In this document: piece after piece, positions 13,585 through 60,295 of the stretch | How positions within the stretch are numbered: the first letter of the stretch is position 1 | Layout: the number at the start of each line of letters is the position of its first letter | NCBI GenBank assembly: GCA_018830445.1 | Contig: JAHJSN010000098.1 | Location: 1 to 64,000, forward strand | Direction of reading: 5' to 3' | Origin: Alphaproteobacteria bacterium | GTDB taxonomy: Bacteria; Pseudomonadota; Alphaproteobacteria; Rhizobiales; Hyphomicrobiaceae | DNA length: 64,000 nt | The notes under the pieces: generated by a model | What the model saw: only the letters and a program-made list of their open reading frames with translations | The model's database searches: none | Told to the model about the DNA's origin: nothing | Program-made: the position numbers and the translations under genes

Positions 13585-13729
13585 CTAGTGTTCCGACTCT
13601 GACATATGGTTCCCTGCCGGGAACCTGAAGGTCAGCCCGGAACACTAGGCAACCTTTTGATTGTGTTCTGGATTCACAAACATTTGACGACCTCCGCCCG
13701 GGAATCAAATGTTTGATCCAGAACACTAG
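13585..13729. repeat. Double-hairpin palindromic repeat, copy 2
   Basis: 145 bp from CTAGTGTTCC to GAACACTAG. Hairpin 1 (13585-13648) nests GTGTTCC/GGAACAC, CTGACAT/(A)GGTCAG and GGTTCCC/GGGAACC. A 14-nt spacer follows. Hairpin 2 (13663-13729) pairs GTGTTCTGGAT with ATCCAGAACAC and CAAACATTTGA with TCAAATGTTTG. It lies just upstream of the GNAT-cimA operon. No transposase is encoded. Confidence 0.88.
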
Positions 13730-15385: not shown

Positions 15386-15462
15386 CTCGTGTTCCGGCCC
15401 CGACACTTGGTTCCCCTTGCAGCACGCTATCGACCAAGTGCCGGAGCCATAAGGAACACGAG
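15386..15462. repeat. Single-hairpin palindromic element, type B
   Basis: 77 bp with perfect 10-bp terminal inverted repeats CTCGTGTTCC and GGAACACGAG. Nested inside are GGC/GCC and ACACTTGGT, the latter pairing (apart from its first base) with ACCAAGTG. Its first 23 bp closely resemble the start of the double-hairpin repeats, so it looks like a diverged relative. It occupies part of the 516-bp gap between cysS and folP. Confidence 0.75.
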
Positions 15463-15550
15463 CAAAGCTATGATTCTCGTGTCGCTTTTGCACCAAACGT
15501 TTGGCATCGAGCCAAGCCGCAAGTGGGGACCAAACATTAGGTGCGCACCA

Positions 15551-15711
15551 CTAGTGTTCCGACTCTGACATATGGTTCCCTGCCGGGAACCTGAATGTCA
15601 GCCCGGAACACTGTCAGCCCGGAACACTTGGCAACCTTTTGATTGTGTTCTGGATTCACAAACATTTGACGACCTCCACCCGGGAATCAAATGTTTGATC
15701 CAGAACACTAG
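15551..15711. repeat. Double-hairpin palindromic repeat, copy 3
   Basis: 161 bp, the same as copies 2 and 4 except for a 16-bp tandem duplication (GTCAGCCCGGAACACT twice) at the end of hairpin 1. It begins CTAGTGTTCC and ends GAACACTAG. It lies 110 bp upstream of folP, in the gap between the divergent cysS and folP genes and close to the point where strand composition changes. Confidence 0.88.
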
Positions 15712-18074: not shown

Positions 18075-18219
18075 CTAGTGTTCCGACTCTGACATATGGT
18101 TCCCTGCAGGGAACCTGAATGTCAGCCCGGAACACTAGGCAACCTTTTGATTGTGTTCTGGATTCACAAACATTTGACGACCTCCACCCGGGAATCAAAT
18201 GTTTGATCCAGAACACTAG
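18075..18219. repeat. Double-hairpin palindromic repeat, copy 4
   Basis: 145 bp, CTAGTGTTCC to GAACACTAG, differing from copy 2 by only a few bases (for example CCTGCAGGG in place of CCTGCCGGG). It separates the 364-residue membrane protein from the 181-residue gene and abuts the start codon of the former. Confidence 0.88.
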
Positions 18220-23662: not shown

Positions 23663-23810
23663 CCGACGGACAACACGCAATCGGGGCACGCGGACGGGCC
23701 CTGGAAGCAGAACGGCGGCGCTCGCAAGGGTGCCGCCGTTCGCGGTTCGTAAAATCGTGCTCGGCCGAACGTCGGCCTTGCTCGCGGCTTGGCTTTGAGC
23801 TAGCTGTTCA

Positions 23811-23856
23811 GGTGGGCCACCTCCCCCCAACGGGAGGCTTCTATCTGGAAGGATAG
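23811..23856 (+). ncRNA. serC-type leader RNA (candidate serC motif)
   Basis: Three consecutive small hairpins lie directly before serC: GGTGG/CCACC (from 23811), CCTCCC/GGGAGG (about 23819-23836) and CTATC/GATAG (23841-23856). The last encloses the GGAAGGA Shine-Dalgarno sequence seven bases from the ATG. The serC motif is an established alphaproteobacterial structured leader found upstream of serC-serA. Position and structure match that description, but I could not align it to the family model. Confidence 0.6.
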
Positions 23857-23860
23857 CCAA

Positions 23861-25036
23861 ATGAACCACCCCACGAAGCCGGATGTGCGTCCGGCCAATC
23901 CGCACTTTTCTTCCGGTCCCTGCTCCAAGCACCCCGGCTGGAATCTCGAAAATCTCAATAGTGCGTTTCTTGGCCGCTCGCATCGTGCGACGGACGGCAA
24001 GGCGCGCCTGAAACTTGCCATCGACAAGACCCAGGCCCTGCTCGGGCTGCCGGCGGGCTACGTCTGCGGGATCATGCCGGGGTCGGATACCGGCGCGTTC
24101 GAAGCAGCAATGTGGAACCTGCTCGGGCCACGCGGCGTCGATGTGCTTGCCTGGGAAAGCTTCGGCTCGGTCTGGGTCGGCGATGCCATCAAGCAACTCA
24201 GAATTGAGAACGTGCGCGGGTTCGAAGCCGATTACGGATCGCTTCCGGATCTTTCCCGTGTGGACTTTTCCCGCGATGTGGTGTTCACCGCGAACGGGAC
24301 GGCGGCCGGCGTCAAGGTTCCCGATTACGATTGGATACCGAATGACCGGGAAGGGCTGACGCTGCTCGATGCGACGTCGGCGGTGTTCGCGCAGCCGATC
24401 GATTGGGCGAAGGTCGACTGTCTTACGTTCTCCTGGCAGAAGGTGATGGGCGGGGAAGCTGCTCACGGCATGCTGATCCTGTCGCCGCGCGCGATCGAGC
24501 GGCTTGAAACCTACAGGCCGCCGTGGCCGTTGCCGAAGCTGTTCCGCCTGACGAAGGGCGGCAAGCTGATCGCGGAAATCTTCACCGGCGAGACGATCAA
24601 CACACCTTCGATGCTGGCGCTGGAAGACTACCTCGATGCACTGTCATGGGCGGAAGCGATCGGCGGGCTGCCGGCGCTGCACGCCAGGGCAGATGCCAAC
24701 GCAAAGATGCTGAATGACTGGGTCGACCGGACGGCATGGATCGACAATCTGGCTGTCGATCGGGCGACGCGTTCCAACACCGGCGTGTGCCTGAAGATCG
24801 TCGATCCCGACGTGGTCGGCCTCAATGCGGATGCACAGGCGGCGTTCGCCAAGAGTATCGTAGCGATGCTCGACAAGGAGGGTGTCGCCAAGGACATCGG
24901 CTCCTACAGGGATGCGCCAGCCGGCTTGCGCATCTGGTGCGGCTCGACGATCGAGACGAGCGATGTGGAAGCACTGCTGCCGTGGCTCGATTGGGCATTT
25001 GCTGAAGCGAAGTCAGCTCTGGCAAAAGCCGCCTGA
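23861..25036 (+). CDS. serC: Phosphoserine aminotransferase SerC
   Basis: Makes phosphoserine from 3-phosphohydroxypyruvate and glutamate with PLP. It is a 391-residue class V aminotransferase of the alphaproteobacterial type. The N-terminus [16 protein letters not shown] resembles [11 protein letters not shown] of relatives. The PLP lysine is in [34 protein letters not shown] binds the cofactor phosphate. The C-terminal small domain is complete ([17 protein letters not shown]). It is followed by serA after 176 bp that contain a palindromic element. The leader has the serC-type structure. Confidence 0.95.
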
Positions 25037-25087
25037 GGGCGGGAGCCCATTTTCATCGACGCAATTCTCGATTCCGACCGGCCAGCC

Positions 25088-25165
25088 CTCGTGTTCCGGC
25101 TCTGATATTTGCCCCACCCGTGCGGCAAGGCTCAGAGCGAATGTGCTAACCAATTGGAACACTAG
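25088..25165. repeat. Single-hairpin palindromic element, type C
   Basis: 78 bp from CTCGTGTTCC to GGAACACTAG, with nested CTCTGA/TCAGAG and TTGCC/GGCAA pairs. Its first 23 bp differ from the type B element at 15386 at only five positions, while the interior is different. It sits between serC and serA, 47 bp before the serA start. Confidence 0.72.
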
Positions 25166-25212
25166 CAGCAATTGGTGCGCGGGCGGTCGTACAGGCTTGA
25201 AAGGACTTTAAC

Positions 25213-52002: not shown

Positions 52003-54120
52003 TCAGGCCGCACGGAACAGACGGACAGCCTCGTCGGCCTCGAACAGATAGAGCAGCGTCCTGATGGCTTGTCCGCGCGGGCTTTCGAGTTCGGGGTCTT
52101 TTGCCAGCAAGAGGCGTGCGTCGTCGTGGGCTGCGCCGAGCAGATCTTCGAAGTTGGGGACGTTGGCTACGCGATATTCGGGCAGGCCGCTTTGCCGGGC
52201 GCCGAGGACTTCGCCGCCGCCGCGCAGTTCGAGATCCTTCTCGGCGATCTCGAAACCGTCTTCGGTGCGCTCCATCATCTGGAGACGCTGGCCAGCAACC
52301 TCGCCGAGCGGCGTCTTGTAAAGCAGCATGCAATAGGACTGGCGGTCGCCGCGCCCGACGCGGCCGCGCAACTGGTGGAGCTGCGCGAGGCCGAAGCGTT
52401 CGGCGTGCTCGATCACCATGATGTTGGCGTTGGGTACGTTGACGCCGACTTCGATGACGGTGGTGGCGACCAGGATCTTCAGCTTGTTTTCCGCAAACCG
52501 CGCCATCACGTCGTCCTTGGCTGAACCGCTCATGGCGCCGTGCAACAGGCCGACGCTGTCGCCGCCGAATATCTGCACGAGATGGGCCGCGCGCTCTTCG
52601 GCTGCCGCCAGTTCGCTTTTGGCGCTCGATTCGATCAGCGGGCAGACCCAGTAGACCTGGGCGCCTTCCTCGAACTGGGCTTTCAAGCGTTCGATCAGCC
52701 GTTCGATGCCGTCGACGGGCAGCATCTTGGTGACAATGGGCTTGCGGCCCGGCGGCTTTTCGGTGAGGCGGGAGACATCGAGGTCGCCGAAGTGCGTCAT
52801 CAGCAGCGTGCGCGGAATCGGCGTTGCGGTCATCACCAGCATGTTGGCACCGCCGCCACCGCCCTTGGCCTGCAAGGCGAGGCGCTGATGAACCCCGAAA
52901 CGGTGCTGCTCATCGATCACGGCAAGCGCGAGGTCCTGGAAGACGACGTCGGGCTGGAACAGGGCGTGCGTGCCGATCAGGATATCGAGATAGCCGGAAC
53001 TGAGGAGTTCGAGGATGTCCTTTCTGACCTTGCCTTTCTCGCGGCCGGTCAGGAGCGCGACGCGCAGGCCGACGGCCTTGGCGAGGGGTTCGATGGTCTC
53101 CATGTGCTGGCGGGCGAGCACTTCGGTCGGTGCCATCAAGGCGGCCTGGGCGCCGATCTCGACGGCATTGGCCATGGCCATCAGCGCGACGACCGTCTTG
53201 CCGGAGCCGACATCTCCCTGCAACAGGCGAAGCATCCGGAAGGGTCCGGACATGTCTTCGGCGATCTCTTTCAAGGCTTCGGTTTGCGATCCGGTCAGAG
53301 AGAAGGGAAGTGCCGCCTTGATTTTCTCGCGGATCGAACCGTCGCCGGCGATCTGGCGCCCGCGCTGACCTTTCAATTTGGCGCGCACTATGGCCAGAGC
53401 GATCTGGCTGGTGAGGAGTTCGTCGTAGGCGAGGCGCTGCCAGTGGGCGCTGCCGGTGGAAACGTCGGAAGTGTCTTCGGGGCGATGAAGATGGCGGATG
53501 GCGTCGTGGAACGATGGCCAGTTGCGTGCCGCCATCCAGCGCGGTTCCTGCCATTCGGTCATTTCGGGGACCTTGTCCAGCGCCTGACGAATGGCCTTAC
53601 AAAGTACCTTGCCGGATAGTCCGGCGGTGAGACCGTAGACCGGTTCCATCAGGGGTAGGTCGCCGCGTTGATCGGGCGGTACGATATAATCGGGATGGGT
53701 CATCTGAAGCTTGTCACCGTAAAGCTCGATGCGGCCCGATACGAAGCGTTCCTCGCCGGGAGGCAGCTGGCCTTCGACATAGCGCCGGTCGGCGTGGAAG
53801 AAGACGATGTCGAGTTTGCCGGTGTCGTCTTCGCAGGTGACTCTATAGGGCGCCTTCTTATTGCCTTTCGGCGAAGGGCGGTGCTTCAGAGCACGAACCT
53901 TGAGCGTTACGATGCTGCCGGGGGCGGCGTGGGCGATGCTCGGCTCGGCGCGGCGGTCGATGACGCCGGTCGGGAGGTGCCACAGAAGATCGACAATGCG
54001 CGGTTCTGTGACGTTGGGCGGGATTGAGAGAGCCTTGGCCAGCAGCACGGCAAGTCGCGGCCCAATGCCGGCGAGGCTCTGGGCTGGGGCGAACAGCGGT
54101 GTCAACAGGCTCGGACGCAT
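52003..54120 (-). CDS. recG: ATP-dependent DNA helicase RecG
   Basis: Branch-migration helicase that reverses stalled forks. It has 705 residues. The N-terminal wedge/OB domain is at about residues 55-170 (IDLLWHLPTGVIDRRAE, YRVTCEDDTGKLDIVFFHA). Motif I is GDVGSGKTVVAL, motif II is VIDEQHRFGV, motif III is MTATPIPRTL, and the later motifs include ATTVIEVGVNVPNA and QLRGRVGRGD. The ATG at 54120 fits known RecG ends. The same frame stays open through the tandem array upstream, to 54666, but that extension is repetitive and not RecG-like. Divergent from sdhE-mfd, a common arrangement here. Confidence 0.94.
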   Translation of the reverse strand: MRPSLLTPLFAPAQSLAGIGPRLAVLLAKALSIPPNVTEPRIVDLLWHLPTGVIDRRAEPSIAHAAPGSIVTLKVRALKHRPSPKGNKKAPYRVTCEDDTGKLDIVFFHADRRYVEGQLPPGEERFVSGRIELYGDKLQMTHPDYIVPPDQRGDLPLMEPVYGLTAGLSGKVLCKAIRQALDKVPEMTEWQEPRWMAARNWPSFHDAIRHLHRPEDTSDVSTGSAHWQRLAYDELLTSQIALAIVRAKLKGQRGRQIAGDGSIREKIKAALPFSLTGSQTEALKEIAEDMSGPFRMLRLLQGDVGSGKTVVALMAMANAVEIGAQAALMAPTEVLARQHMETIEPLAKAVGLRVALLTGREKGKVRKDILELLSSGYLDILIGTHALFQPDVVFQDLALAVIDEQHRFGVHQRLALQAKGGGGGANMLVMTATPIPRTLLMTHFGDLDVSRLTEKPPGRKPIVTKMLPVDGIERLIERLKAQFEEGAQVYWVCPLIESSAKSELAAAEERAAHLVQIFGGDSVGLLHGAMSGSAKDDVMARFAENKLKILVATTVIEVGVNVPNANIMVIEHAERFGLAQLHQLRGRVGRGDRQSYCMLLYKTPLGEVAGQRLQMMERTEDGFEIAEKDLELRGGGEVLGARQSGLPEYRVANVPNFEDLLGAAHDDARLLLAKDPELESPRGQAIRTLLYLFEADEAVRLFRAA

Positions 54121-54140
54121 GGTTTTCTTTTGGTTTGCCC

Positions 54141-54597
54141 TTCGGTTGCCCACTGCGCAACCGGGCTCTTTTCTGGCCCTTCGGTTGCCCACTTCGCAAC
54201 CGGGCTCTTTTCTGGCCCTCCGGTTGCCCACTTCGCAACCGGGCTCTTTTCTGGCCCTCCGGTTGCCCACTTCGCAACCGGGCTCTTTTTTGGCCCTCCG
54301 GTTGCCCACTTCGCAACCGGGCTCTTTTCTGGCTCTTCGGTTGCCCACTTCGCAACCGGGCTCTTTTCTGGCCCTTCGGTTGCCCACTTCGCAACCGGGC
54401 TCTTTTTTGGCCCTCCGGTTGCCCACTTCGCAACCGGGCTCTTTTTTGGCCCTCCGGTTGCCCACTGCGCAACCGGGCTCTTCTCTGGCCCTTCGGTTGC
54501 CCACTGCGCAACCGGGCTCTTTTCTGGCCCTTCGGTTGCCCACTGCGCAACCGGGCTCTTTTCTGGCCCTTCGGTTGCCCACTTCGCAACCGGGCGC
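54141..54597. repeat. Array of twelve 39-bp palindromic tandem repeats upstream of recG
   Basis: The unit starts TTCGGTTGCCCAC and continues with (T/G)(T/C)GCAACCGGGCTC, then TTTTCTGGCCC. Each holds a CCGGTTGC/GCAACCGG hairpin (7-8 bp). Twelve units follow head to tail, with mostly single-base differences (TTC or TGC before GCAAC; CTT or CTC before CGG). The array stands between recG and sdhE. Confidence 0.93.
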
Positions 54598-54804
54598 TGG
54601 CATACCTTCGGTGCGCAGTGATGGGGTGATTTGGGTTGAATGGAGCGGACTACCGGCCTTCCCCATTTGCCGGGTGGGCTTTATACCACGGCTCTCCGGC
54701 GGTGCTGGTGCAGGGGAAGTGAATAACTGTCGATAGTTTCGGCCGGTACAATTCGATACTCAGTTCCGTCGGGCCTCGGCCTTGCGTGCAAGGGTGGAAG
54801 CAAC

Positions 54805-58795: not shown

Positions 58796-60295
58796 ATGAA
58801 ACGACTTATATTGGCGGCTGCTGTGGCCGGGTTGAGTTCGTCTTGTGCGATGGCGCAGAGCTTCGATTGTTCGGGGCGGCTGGCGGTCGATGAGCAGGCG
58901 ATCTGCGATAGCCGGGCATTGTCGCGGCTCGATGTCGAACTCTCCGATGTCTACGAGGACGTACTTGCGAAAGCTCCCGAACATGACCGGGTTCGCATCC
59001 GGGATGAACAGCGCGATTGGATCGGTACGCGCAGCGCCTGCCGGGAGAGGGGCTCTTGCCTCTCGCGACTTTACCGCGACCGCATTTCCGAGCTTGAAGA
59101 TAAGAACGAGCGGTATGGCCGGTCGGCGGCTCCCGGCGAAGCCTACGACGGGCGGGACCGTTGGGCGGCGCTGGGTTCGGTCGATGTGGGCGATGATTCC
59201 GAACCGCTGACCATTCTGGTCGGCTTCTCGCGCGGGCGGTTTGATGCCCTGCAGTTGAGGGTGCGGGATTCGGGGGCACGCATTCGCAGGCTTACGGTCG
59301 TTTACGCCAATGGCATGTCGCAGAGTTACAGATTCCGGCGGCCGTTCCGCGCGGGGCAGCTGTCTGACTTAATTGAGCTGCGTGCGCGCAGGTTCGGACG
59401 TTTCATCGAGCGCATCGTTGTCGAAGCACGGGGGGCGGGAGCTACCAGGATCGATGTGATCGGGCGGCGCAGTGGCAACGGCTTCAATGACCGGCAATAT
59501 TCGCGCGATGATGATGGCGGGCGGGATGGTCGGGGCGGATATACCGAACGGGATCGTTATCCCGACCAGTATCGCACCGAACGGGATCGTTATCCCGACC
59601 AGTATCGCACCGAACGGGATCGTTATTCCGACCAGGATCGCACCGAACGGGATCGTTATCCCGACCAGGATAGCGCCGACCGGGATCGTTATTCCGACCG
59701 GGATCGCAATGACCGGGACGGGGATGACGATCGCAGACGGTATTCGGATCTGCAGCGGGATACAGAGCGCGATCCTGGCCGGTTCGAGGGGCGGGATTTC
59801 GAGGATCGCGGAGCGGATACGGATCGGGATCGCGAGGTTGATCGCGACGAACCACGCGATTGGCGCGAGGGGGATCGACGCGATGACTACGTCGATGATC
59901 GGCGCGCGGACGTGAGCCGCGAGCGGCTCCTCGATTTCGTGAAGGACGTATTTCACCGCACCGCCGAGATGAGCGAGCGGGAATTGAGAGAGACCTATGC
60001 GTCGCGCGCCGACTATTACGGTGAACGCCGCAAACCGATCGACGACATCATTGCGGACAAACGCAATTACGCCGAGCGCTGGAACGACCGCGCGTTTCGG
60101 GTGCGCGACGATACGTTTCGCTTCGAGGAGACTGCCGAACCCGGCGTCTACGAGTTGACCTACGCCTACGATTTCCACGTGCGCGGCGATGGACGCGAAA
60201 GCAAGGGCAACGGCGAGACGACGTTACTCGTCGATACGAACGGCGAGCGCTATGTCATCCTCAAGGAAGACGGCAAGGTGTTGCAGAAGTTCTAG
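58796..60295 (+). CDS. Exported LprI-N/DUF1311-type protein with Arg/Asp repeats
   Basis: 499 residues. A signal peptide (MKRLILAAAVAGLSSSCAMA) is followed by a DUF1311/LprI N-terminal domain with four or more Cys (FDCSGRLAVDEQAICDSRAL, DEQRDWIGTRSACRERGSCL). A beta-rich part and a low-complexity Arg/Asp/Tyr stretch follow (residues about 250-390), of which the first section is a clear 11-residue tandem repeat. A folded C-terminal domain ends the protein (RADYYGERRKPIDDIIADKR to KEDGKVLQKF). It is probably a periplasmic protein. Function unknown. Confidence 0.8.
   Translation: MKRLILAAAVAGLSSSCAMAQSFDCSGRLAVDEQAICDSRALSRLDVELSDVYEDVLAKAPEHDRVRIRDEQRDWIGTRSACRERGSCLSRLYRDRISELEDKNERYGRSAAPGEAYDGRDRWAALGSVDVGDDSEPLTILVGFSRGRFDALQLRVRDSGARIRRLTVVYANGMSQSYRFRRPFRAGQLSDLIELRARRFGRFIERIVVEARGAGATRIDVIGRRSGNGFNDRQYSRDDDGGRDGRGGYTERDRYPDQYRTERDRYPDQYRTERDRYSDQDRTERDRYPDQDSADRDRYSDRDRNDRDGDDDRRRYSDLQRDTERDPGRFEGRDFEDRGADTDRDREVDRDEPRDWREGDRRDDYVDDRRADVSRERLLDFVKDVFHRTAEMSERELRETYASRADYYGERRKPIDDIIADKRNYAERWNDRAFRVRDDTFRFEETAEPGVYELTYAYDFHVRGDGRESKGNGETTLLVDTNGERYVILKEDGKVLQKF
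59543..59707 (+). repeat. Five 33-bp tandem repeats in the LprI-like gene
   Basis: Each unit encodes TERDRYPDQYR or a close variant, in frame. The first two copies are almost identical at nucleotide level, showing recent expansion; later ones drift (YSDQDR, YPDQDS, YSDRDR). Confidence 0.88.

Follow-up and report, generated by a model that had tools for sequence, protein, structure and literature searches.

Among the short repeats described so far, two systems come closest to the one reported here: the RUP elements with IS630-Spn1 in mechanism, and the CIR repeats in anatomy. RUP elements (107 bp, from Streptococcus pneumoniae) are gene-less, occur in about 100 copies, carry ends like those of an IS630 element of the same genome and use a TA-containing target, and their two ends pair with each other (PMC2229807, PMC3049150). 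CIR repeats, known from Caulobacter, Brucella and other Alphaproteobacteria, are about 110 bp long and intergenic, and consist of two hairpin arms joined by a linker, with TA termini and GANTC sites, one of which is at or partly in a hairpin loop; the available text of the 2007 review that describes them gives no IS630 link and states that more is needed on their mobility (PMC2229807). Bru-RS1 and Bru-RS2 (103-105 bp, PMC2267715) are palindromic repeats favoured as landing sites by IS711, whose target is YTAR (PMC2266754). MITEPsy1 from Pseudomonas syringae (100 nt, few copies) targets CTAG or YTAA, duplicates 4 nt on insertion and has been seen to move, and its ends resemble ISPsy2 of the IS5 family (PMC3189936). 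Finally, ISY100, a member of the IS630 group, transposes in vitro into TA with duplication of the target (PMC2170065).

The DNA analysed in this work (the window, 64,000 nucleotides in length) is part of contig C73 of a draft genome of 4.15 Mb (213 contigs) from an alphaproteobacterium of the Hyphomicrobiaceae. It carries a repeat family, hereafter family A, which is very probably a non-autonomous MITE of the IS630 type (Tc1/mariner-like), moved in trans. The first-pass annotation had proposed a non-autonomous element, and this reading is now supported by 201 matches in the host genome, by the CTAG target, by related empty sites, by IS630-like ends and by an open IS630 gene. The relevant features of the window are the following:

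1-136, + strand: family A element, 5' part lost at the window start; slipped-repeat variant, ending CACTAG at 136
13585-13729, + strand: complete family A element, 145 bp
13585-13648, + strand: first hairpin (H1) of this element, an IS630-type terminus followed by its inverted copy, CTAG at both ends; right-end type, judged by GANTC offset, with a matching end
13649-13662, + strand: linker, G followed by CAACCTTTTGATT, in keeping with the 13-nt consensus of linkers across the wider family
13663-13729, + strand: second hairpin (H2), an inverted copy followed by the IS630-type terminus, ending CTAG (hairpin at 13663-13726, then TAG); left-end type, judged by GANTC offset
13595-13599, + strand: GACTC, matching GANTC, at offset 7 within the left outer end, read from the sequence; the offset recurs in IS and in other MITEs
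13702-13706, - strand: GATTC (GAATC on the + strand), matching GANTC, at offset 20 within the right outer end and on the border of the H2 loop, read from the sequence; this offset also recurs
15386-15554, + strand: older double hairpin of family B (H1b at 15386-15462, linker, then H2b ending in the CTAG at 15551-15554); H1b was among the stretches folded by computation
15551-15711, + strand: family A element, 161 bp long owing to a repeat that has slipped in the H1 3' arm
18075-18219, + strand: complete family A element, 145 bp
25088-25165, + strand: decayed single H1b-like hairpin (CTCG...CTAG) between serC and serA

All four family A copies announced by the first-pass annotation were located, each on the + strand, and copies 2 to 4 do begin with CTAGTG and finish with CACTAG (copy 1 finishes with CACTAG). 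The layout of a complete copy is CTAG, H1, a CTAG-type site, the linker, H2 and again CTAG, so that, in contrast to RUP, each end is a hairpin of its own with a linker in between, and the target is CTAG. The hairpins had been called perfect, which they are not, since both stems contain mismatches and bulges. The copy at 15551 is lengthened to 161 bp by its slipped repeat, and copy 1 also carries one. Slipped tandem units (AGCCCGGAACACT-like), several of them within one copy, are seen in the 3' arm of H1 in L129, L150 and the window copy at 15551-15711. Folded on the + strand, the two 145-nt copies reach -69 and -70.4 kcal/mol (z of -8.7 and -9.3, with 0 of 200 shuffles folding equally well). 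For the end motif AGTGTTCYG, 14 occurrences were counted in the window where 0.68 would be expected, and none of 100 shuffles reached that number. The CTAG at 15551-15554 is common to the young family A copy and to the diverged, older family B element on its left; the region around the relic (25080-25170) folds weakly, with a z of -1.4. None of the repeats matched Rfam at gathering thresholds, the sole match in the window being the serC leader (RF00517, 69.3 bits) ahead of serC at 23810-23861. The window also holds a tandem array of a 39-nt unit (54020-54676, with 12 overlapping 228-nt register copies) and a short array of a 33-nt unit (59510-59718).

The description of family A as a four-copy element applies to the window and fails genome-wide, where further copies of the unit abound. 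The first 32 bases, with up to three mismatches, account for the 201 matches (100 on one strand and 101 on the other, with 0 for the reversed-pattern control), the hairpin-end pattern is found at 165 sites and near-full-length matches number at least 41 (40 stretches scored of 302 candidates), all of these being draft counts in which some contigs end inside a copy. The instances are on median 98.5% identical to the query (minimum 80.5%) and the family has therefore spread recently, in agreement with the recent activity suggested earlier. Family A is thus short, gene-less and multicopy, 145 bp being too short for a transposase gene. It was matched in five of the 39 genomes searched (the host, G003, G004, G008 and G011). 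The plasmid sequence search gave no match to family A, and no viral contig contained an exact match to a 25-base stretch of it; a family B copy from G003 matched one plasmid record, from Ochrobactrum quorumnocens (Brucellaceae).

The host genome has a single DDE_3 (IS630) match, and it belongs to an element with CTAG on both sides (L173:924 and 2094, with 1168 bp between the TAs) and ends like those of the MITE, the kind of IS that the first-pass annotation had anticipated. Its transposase reading frame (L173:985-2097, 370 aa) is open and scores 275.5 bits with NF033545 (cut-off of 100); its right end starts with GTGTTCT and its left end with GTGTAGC. Over 27 bases, the outer end of H1 matches the right end of this element at 21 positions and the left end at 19, and that of H2 matches the left end at 17 and the right end at 21. 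Compared with an IS from Mesorhizobium sp. L-8-3 (L181), H1 matches 21 of 27 with either end, and H2 matches 21 with the left and 19 with the right; both ends of family A are thus like those of one IS630 element (21 and 21 of 27). For comparison, the maxima at 63 other CTAG sites were 14 and 12, and the maximum at 455 TAG sites was 17, which the match of H2 to the host left end equals (the right end matches H2 better, with 21). Given these uneven matches, raw identity provides no one-to-one pairing of the ends and the host IS may not be the partner; we infer that family A is moved either by the host IS or by a relative, lost or unassembled, whose ends match better.

IS of the IS630/IS870-like group have ends like those of family A, share its CTAG target and encode the transposase which family A lacks. 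DDE_3 matches were also found in G002 and G004; CTAG-bounded stretches in L172 of G002 showed no match to the family A ends. No DDE_3 match was found in G003 (85% complete) or G008, which carry the elements, and the ends of family C were unlike those of the IS (6-12 of 27 positions shared, counting rows with true ends). The host genome also gave four DDE_Tnp_1 matches, and the one that was typed (L176) is an IS1182. This IS1182-family element (L176:471-2118) lies between a family A element and a solo H1 that is a perfect palindrome, a hairpin pattern found at one place in the search, on both strands.

A preference for CTAG is reportedly a feature of IS630, and both the MITE and its IS relatives display it. 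Among the 64 family A instances with both flanks, 46 are CTAG/CTAG, two have equal flanks other than CTAG (CTAA/CTAA in L013 and TTAG/TTAG in L139) and 16 have unequal flanks (CTAG/CTAC and others), seven of the latter having no recognisable left site. For the IS630 relatives (at least 584 encoding stretches among the matches listed, from which 79 loci were retained), flanks were read at 64 loci, many of which are copies in one genome, BAL199; 58 are CTAG/CTAG, one is TTAG/TTAG, one is GTAG/GTAG and four are unequal (ATAG/CTAG, CTAC/CTAG and two more). Equal flanks other than CTAG therefore occur in both groups.

Related empty sites inside other repeats confirm that insertion takes place at a single CTAG, as had been proposed. 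In two of them family A sits in the inner CTAG of family B, once in each orientation (L140, with CTCG/CTAG, and L049, with CTAG/CTAG), and the empty B copies are 91.9-95.9% identical over 122-125 bp among the rows listed; in the third, family C is inserted at the CTAG of a family A copy (L101), the related empty copy being 99.2% identical over 124 bp. A possible fourth case, in which family B lies between the end of a C element and the start of an A element (L072; 96.7% identical to L134 over 122 bp), is less clear because elements also lie side by side unaided. The query's own locus, tandem copies and slipped repeats were left out of these comparisons. In six related species (G001, G002, G003, G004, G005 and G008) the gap between a GNAT-like gene and cysS holds no family A element, in an alignment too weak for a base-exact reading. 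While the target proposed by the first-pass annotation stands, the duplication of TA that came with it may instead be one of four bases. Since MITEPsy1, an IS5-related element, shares CTAG and a 4-nt duplication, target and duplication alone do not prove an IS630 origin.

Concerning the genes around the insertions, 7 of the 49 insertion rows scored lie inside predicted genes, compared with 62% of random positions, and 13 of the 49 fall precisely on the TAG stop of a predicted gene next to them (some rows being overlapping loci). Insertion at a TAG stop lets the duplicated CTAG retain the stop codon. An actual preference for stop codons was not clearly above supply in an open-frame test (24 of 50; for comparison, 4 of 12 at other CTAG sites and 34% at random positions). 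IS870 takes its own stop codon from CTAG, and in the host IS630 element the stop codon TAG of the transposase sits in the right CTAG (L173:2094-2097).

In the mechanism that we favour, an IS630 transposase acting in trans would bind the outer ends of family A and cut the element out, and the excised copy would be pasted into CTAG, leaving CTAG on both sides; we infer that the movement is of this cut-and-paste type. Each outer end carries an inverted copy of itself and thereby forms a hairpin, and the linker joins the two hairpins. Judged by GANTC, the left outer end of family A corresponds to the right-end type of the IS, and the right outer end to the left-end type.

The double-hairpin plan extends well beyond family A. 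In the host it is fully shared by the sister families B and C, and it is seen in part in family D (L113, which shows one complete hairpin, the linker and the beginning of the other hairpin); both nested, H1a-(H2c-H1c)-H2a, and tandem orders were found. Family B is abundant in G003 and present in G008, and two of its elements (L125 and L317) carry the first hairpin in its usual place but inverted. In L133, L145 and L146 an H1 hairpin stands by itself between two CTAG sites, lacking H2, and H1 may move alone or H2 may have been lost. At the level of the order, the junction CACTAG-N12-14-CTAGTG occurs in 45 of 397 genomes (host included) and in 26 of 140 genera, up to 59 times per genome; with counts of 0 to 13 per genome for the reversed control, lone junction matches prove nothing. 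With the linker set to exactly 13 bases, 9 of 289 genomes of the class (host included) have the junction. Examined as double hairpins (arm score of at least 0.75 in both arms; among 1000 random windows 99% scored below 0.71, with a maximum of 0.79, and the loci were given the best of several boundaries, which random windows were not), 21 of 27 order-level loci passed, and so did 3 of 8 class-level loci, all three in other orders. The plan is thus shared by elements in other families and orders of Alphaproteobacteria. The 64 linkers of 13 bases among the matches listed share a consensus of CAA, five variable positions, TG, one of A, T or G (T in most), and a final T; one of them is on a plasmid of Ochrobactrum quorumnocens, and 25 of the 50 distinct linkers, from 12 of 21 genomes, form a GANTC together with the C that follows. 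In the accessible part of the open-access literature on IS630 and MITEs, on related repeats and on RUP, we found no IS630 MITE of double-hairpin anatomy (an absence that is unproven).

Two hairpin arms and a linker are therefore common to CIR, to family A and to those 21 of 27 loci; from the described anatomy, with CIR compared by description only, the present families and CIR appear to be of one kind.

Could the hairpins have another origin, or another use? Their complementary arms may be kept without selection, by template switching in quasi-palindromes during replication, which we consider possible yet doubtful. In the solo hairpin of L176 the inner arm exactly copies the outer arm, including the variant TGCTCC/GGAGCA, and 17 of the 64 family A instances exceed the common form by at least 11 bases, as the slipped repeats of the H1 3' arm do. 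Template switching explains the symmetry of the arms only, and neither the spread, nor the target, nor the IS-like ends; it is compatible with the reading of family A as an IS630 MITE.

It is quite unlikely that the hairpins are instead maintained as host RNA or DNA structures (terminators, mRNA stability, nucleoid sites), with transposition belonging to the past. The strong folds of both 145-nt copies and the 13 of 49 rows at TAG stop codons would suit such a role, and so would the stems of family B, analysed on 34 of 46 sequences (12 were left out, 11 with a reverse-read or inverted hairpin and one unparsed). Here, 7 of the 25 pairs in each hairpin are changed on both sides, covariation scores are 0.164 and 0.107 where shuffles give 0.085 and 0.067 (neither score being reached in any of 500), and paired cells amount to 95.5% and 93.3% versus 23-40% in slid controls. 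Against this, neither the count of doubly changed pairs in H1b (reached in 40 of 500 shuffles) nor its number of pair types (457 of 500) exceeds the shuffles, and kin copies inflate the scores. Moreover, most double changes separate the copies of different species (as does the change from G-C to C-G at H1b columns 26/53), a pattern that selection acting on source copies, or copying from arm to arm, would produce more readily than selection at each site, and the insertion at stop codons, as seen above, does not clearly exceed supply.

An IS5-type transposase, perhaps that of the IS5-type IS which sits in many of the elements, is a highly improbable mover. Eight of the ten left ends of this IS found in the host genome (L157-L166) lie in or at the edge of elements, at CTAG or CTAA, and an IS5-related MITE is already known to use CTAG and to duplicate 4 nt (PMC3189936); the ends of the host IS (GGCCTGTCGTCAGTTGARCC), however, are unlike the element ends when compared by eye, and the likeness to Bru-RS and IS711, drawn from their description, concerns the landing site only. 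The right end of this IS shares a 13-base stretch with one H2 variant, and L171 (the same place as L051; with L052 and L128) holds a 26-base hybrid of the IS5-type right end and an H2 end, with TTGAGCCAGAACA in common, possibly a product of recombination.

Barely credible is a single-strand element of the REP/RAYT-like or IS200/IS605 type, with a Y1 (HUH) transposase as its mover: double hairpins do recall IS200/IS605 ends, and among nine genomes Y1_Tnp (a Pfam model that does not tell RAYT from IS200) is found in the element carriers G000, G003 and G011, where in G011, a genome of another genus, the gene directly adjoins a related double hairpin on one side (L153), and is absent from the element-free G001, G002, G005 and G007, but G008 and G004 carry elements without a Y1 match, the host Y1 gene is cut by a contig start and has no element in its visible right flank, and the ends of family A resemble IS630 ends.

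Returning to the IS630 reading, what is new here is a fixed place for GANTC, the CcrM methylation site, in each IS630 end, which family A and many other MITEs keep. Ends were compared in 39 IS630 elements (that of the host plus 38 from the 79 loci, with almost all of the BAL199 copies set aside). At offset 7-11 of the right end, GANTC is present in 28 of 29 distinct sequences (N being G in 15, A in 8 and C in 5); at offset 20-24 of the left end, G, T and C are invariant and A is found in 31 of 32 distinct sequences (N being T in 23, G in 6 and A in 3). GANTC also occupies both of these positions in an IS870-family copy from an Agrobacterium Ti plasmid. Family A carries it at offset 7 in its left and offset 20 in its right outer end, and other MITEs often keep these places. 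Of the 36 double-hairpin loci, 25 passed the hairpin test for this count (9 from one genus, two of these 9 identical in sequence); within the outermost 26 bases of each end, every GANTC of these elements sits either at offset 7 (15 cases) or at offset 20 (11 cases). Seven of them have both offsets, in opposite ends, ten have GANTC in the linker and 23 of the 25 have it somewhere, as CIR repeats and family A do; in L338 the site at offset 20 stands in the other end. Overall, GANTC has a frequency of 1.78 per kb in the window. Owing to the common ancestry of IS and MITEs, the counts do not represent independent events.

Dam methylation controls the transposition of IS10. By analogy, and tentatively, we suggest that IS630 elements of Alphaproteobacteria and the double-hairpin MITEs might be under CcrM control through the fixed GANTC in each end, a proposal that is possible rather than likely; hemimethylation just behind the replication fork would license transposition, as in the Dam case, and could couple the movement of the elements to the cell cycle. 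Plasmid-borne IS630 relatives (15 places from 60 listed of 1767 records, two of them without clear ends) weaken a reading by CcrM only. In the eight alphaproteobacterial ones with ends, GANTC is at offset 7 in all eight right ends and at offset 20 in five of eight left ends, so that three do without the latter, and among the five from outside the class, two (Streptomyces and Azotobacter) have offset 7 and none has offset 20. The GA-TC bases could simply be those that the transposase touches.

For the biology of the Alphaproteobacteria, the reading of family A as an IS630-type MITE connects a class of their double-hairpin repeats with a target, an end structure and a family of transposases, and it turns the reported link between repeats and CcrM sites into a testable question. 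If it were true, control by CcrM would explain how CIR-type repeats spread and why they carry GANTC.
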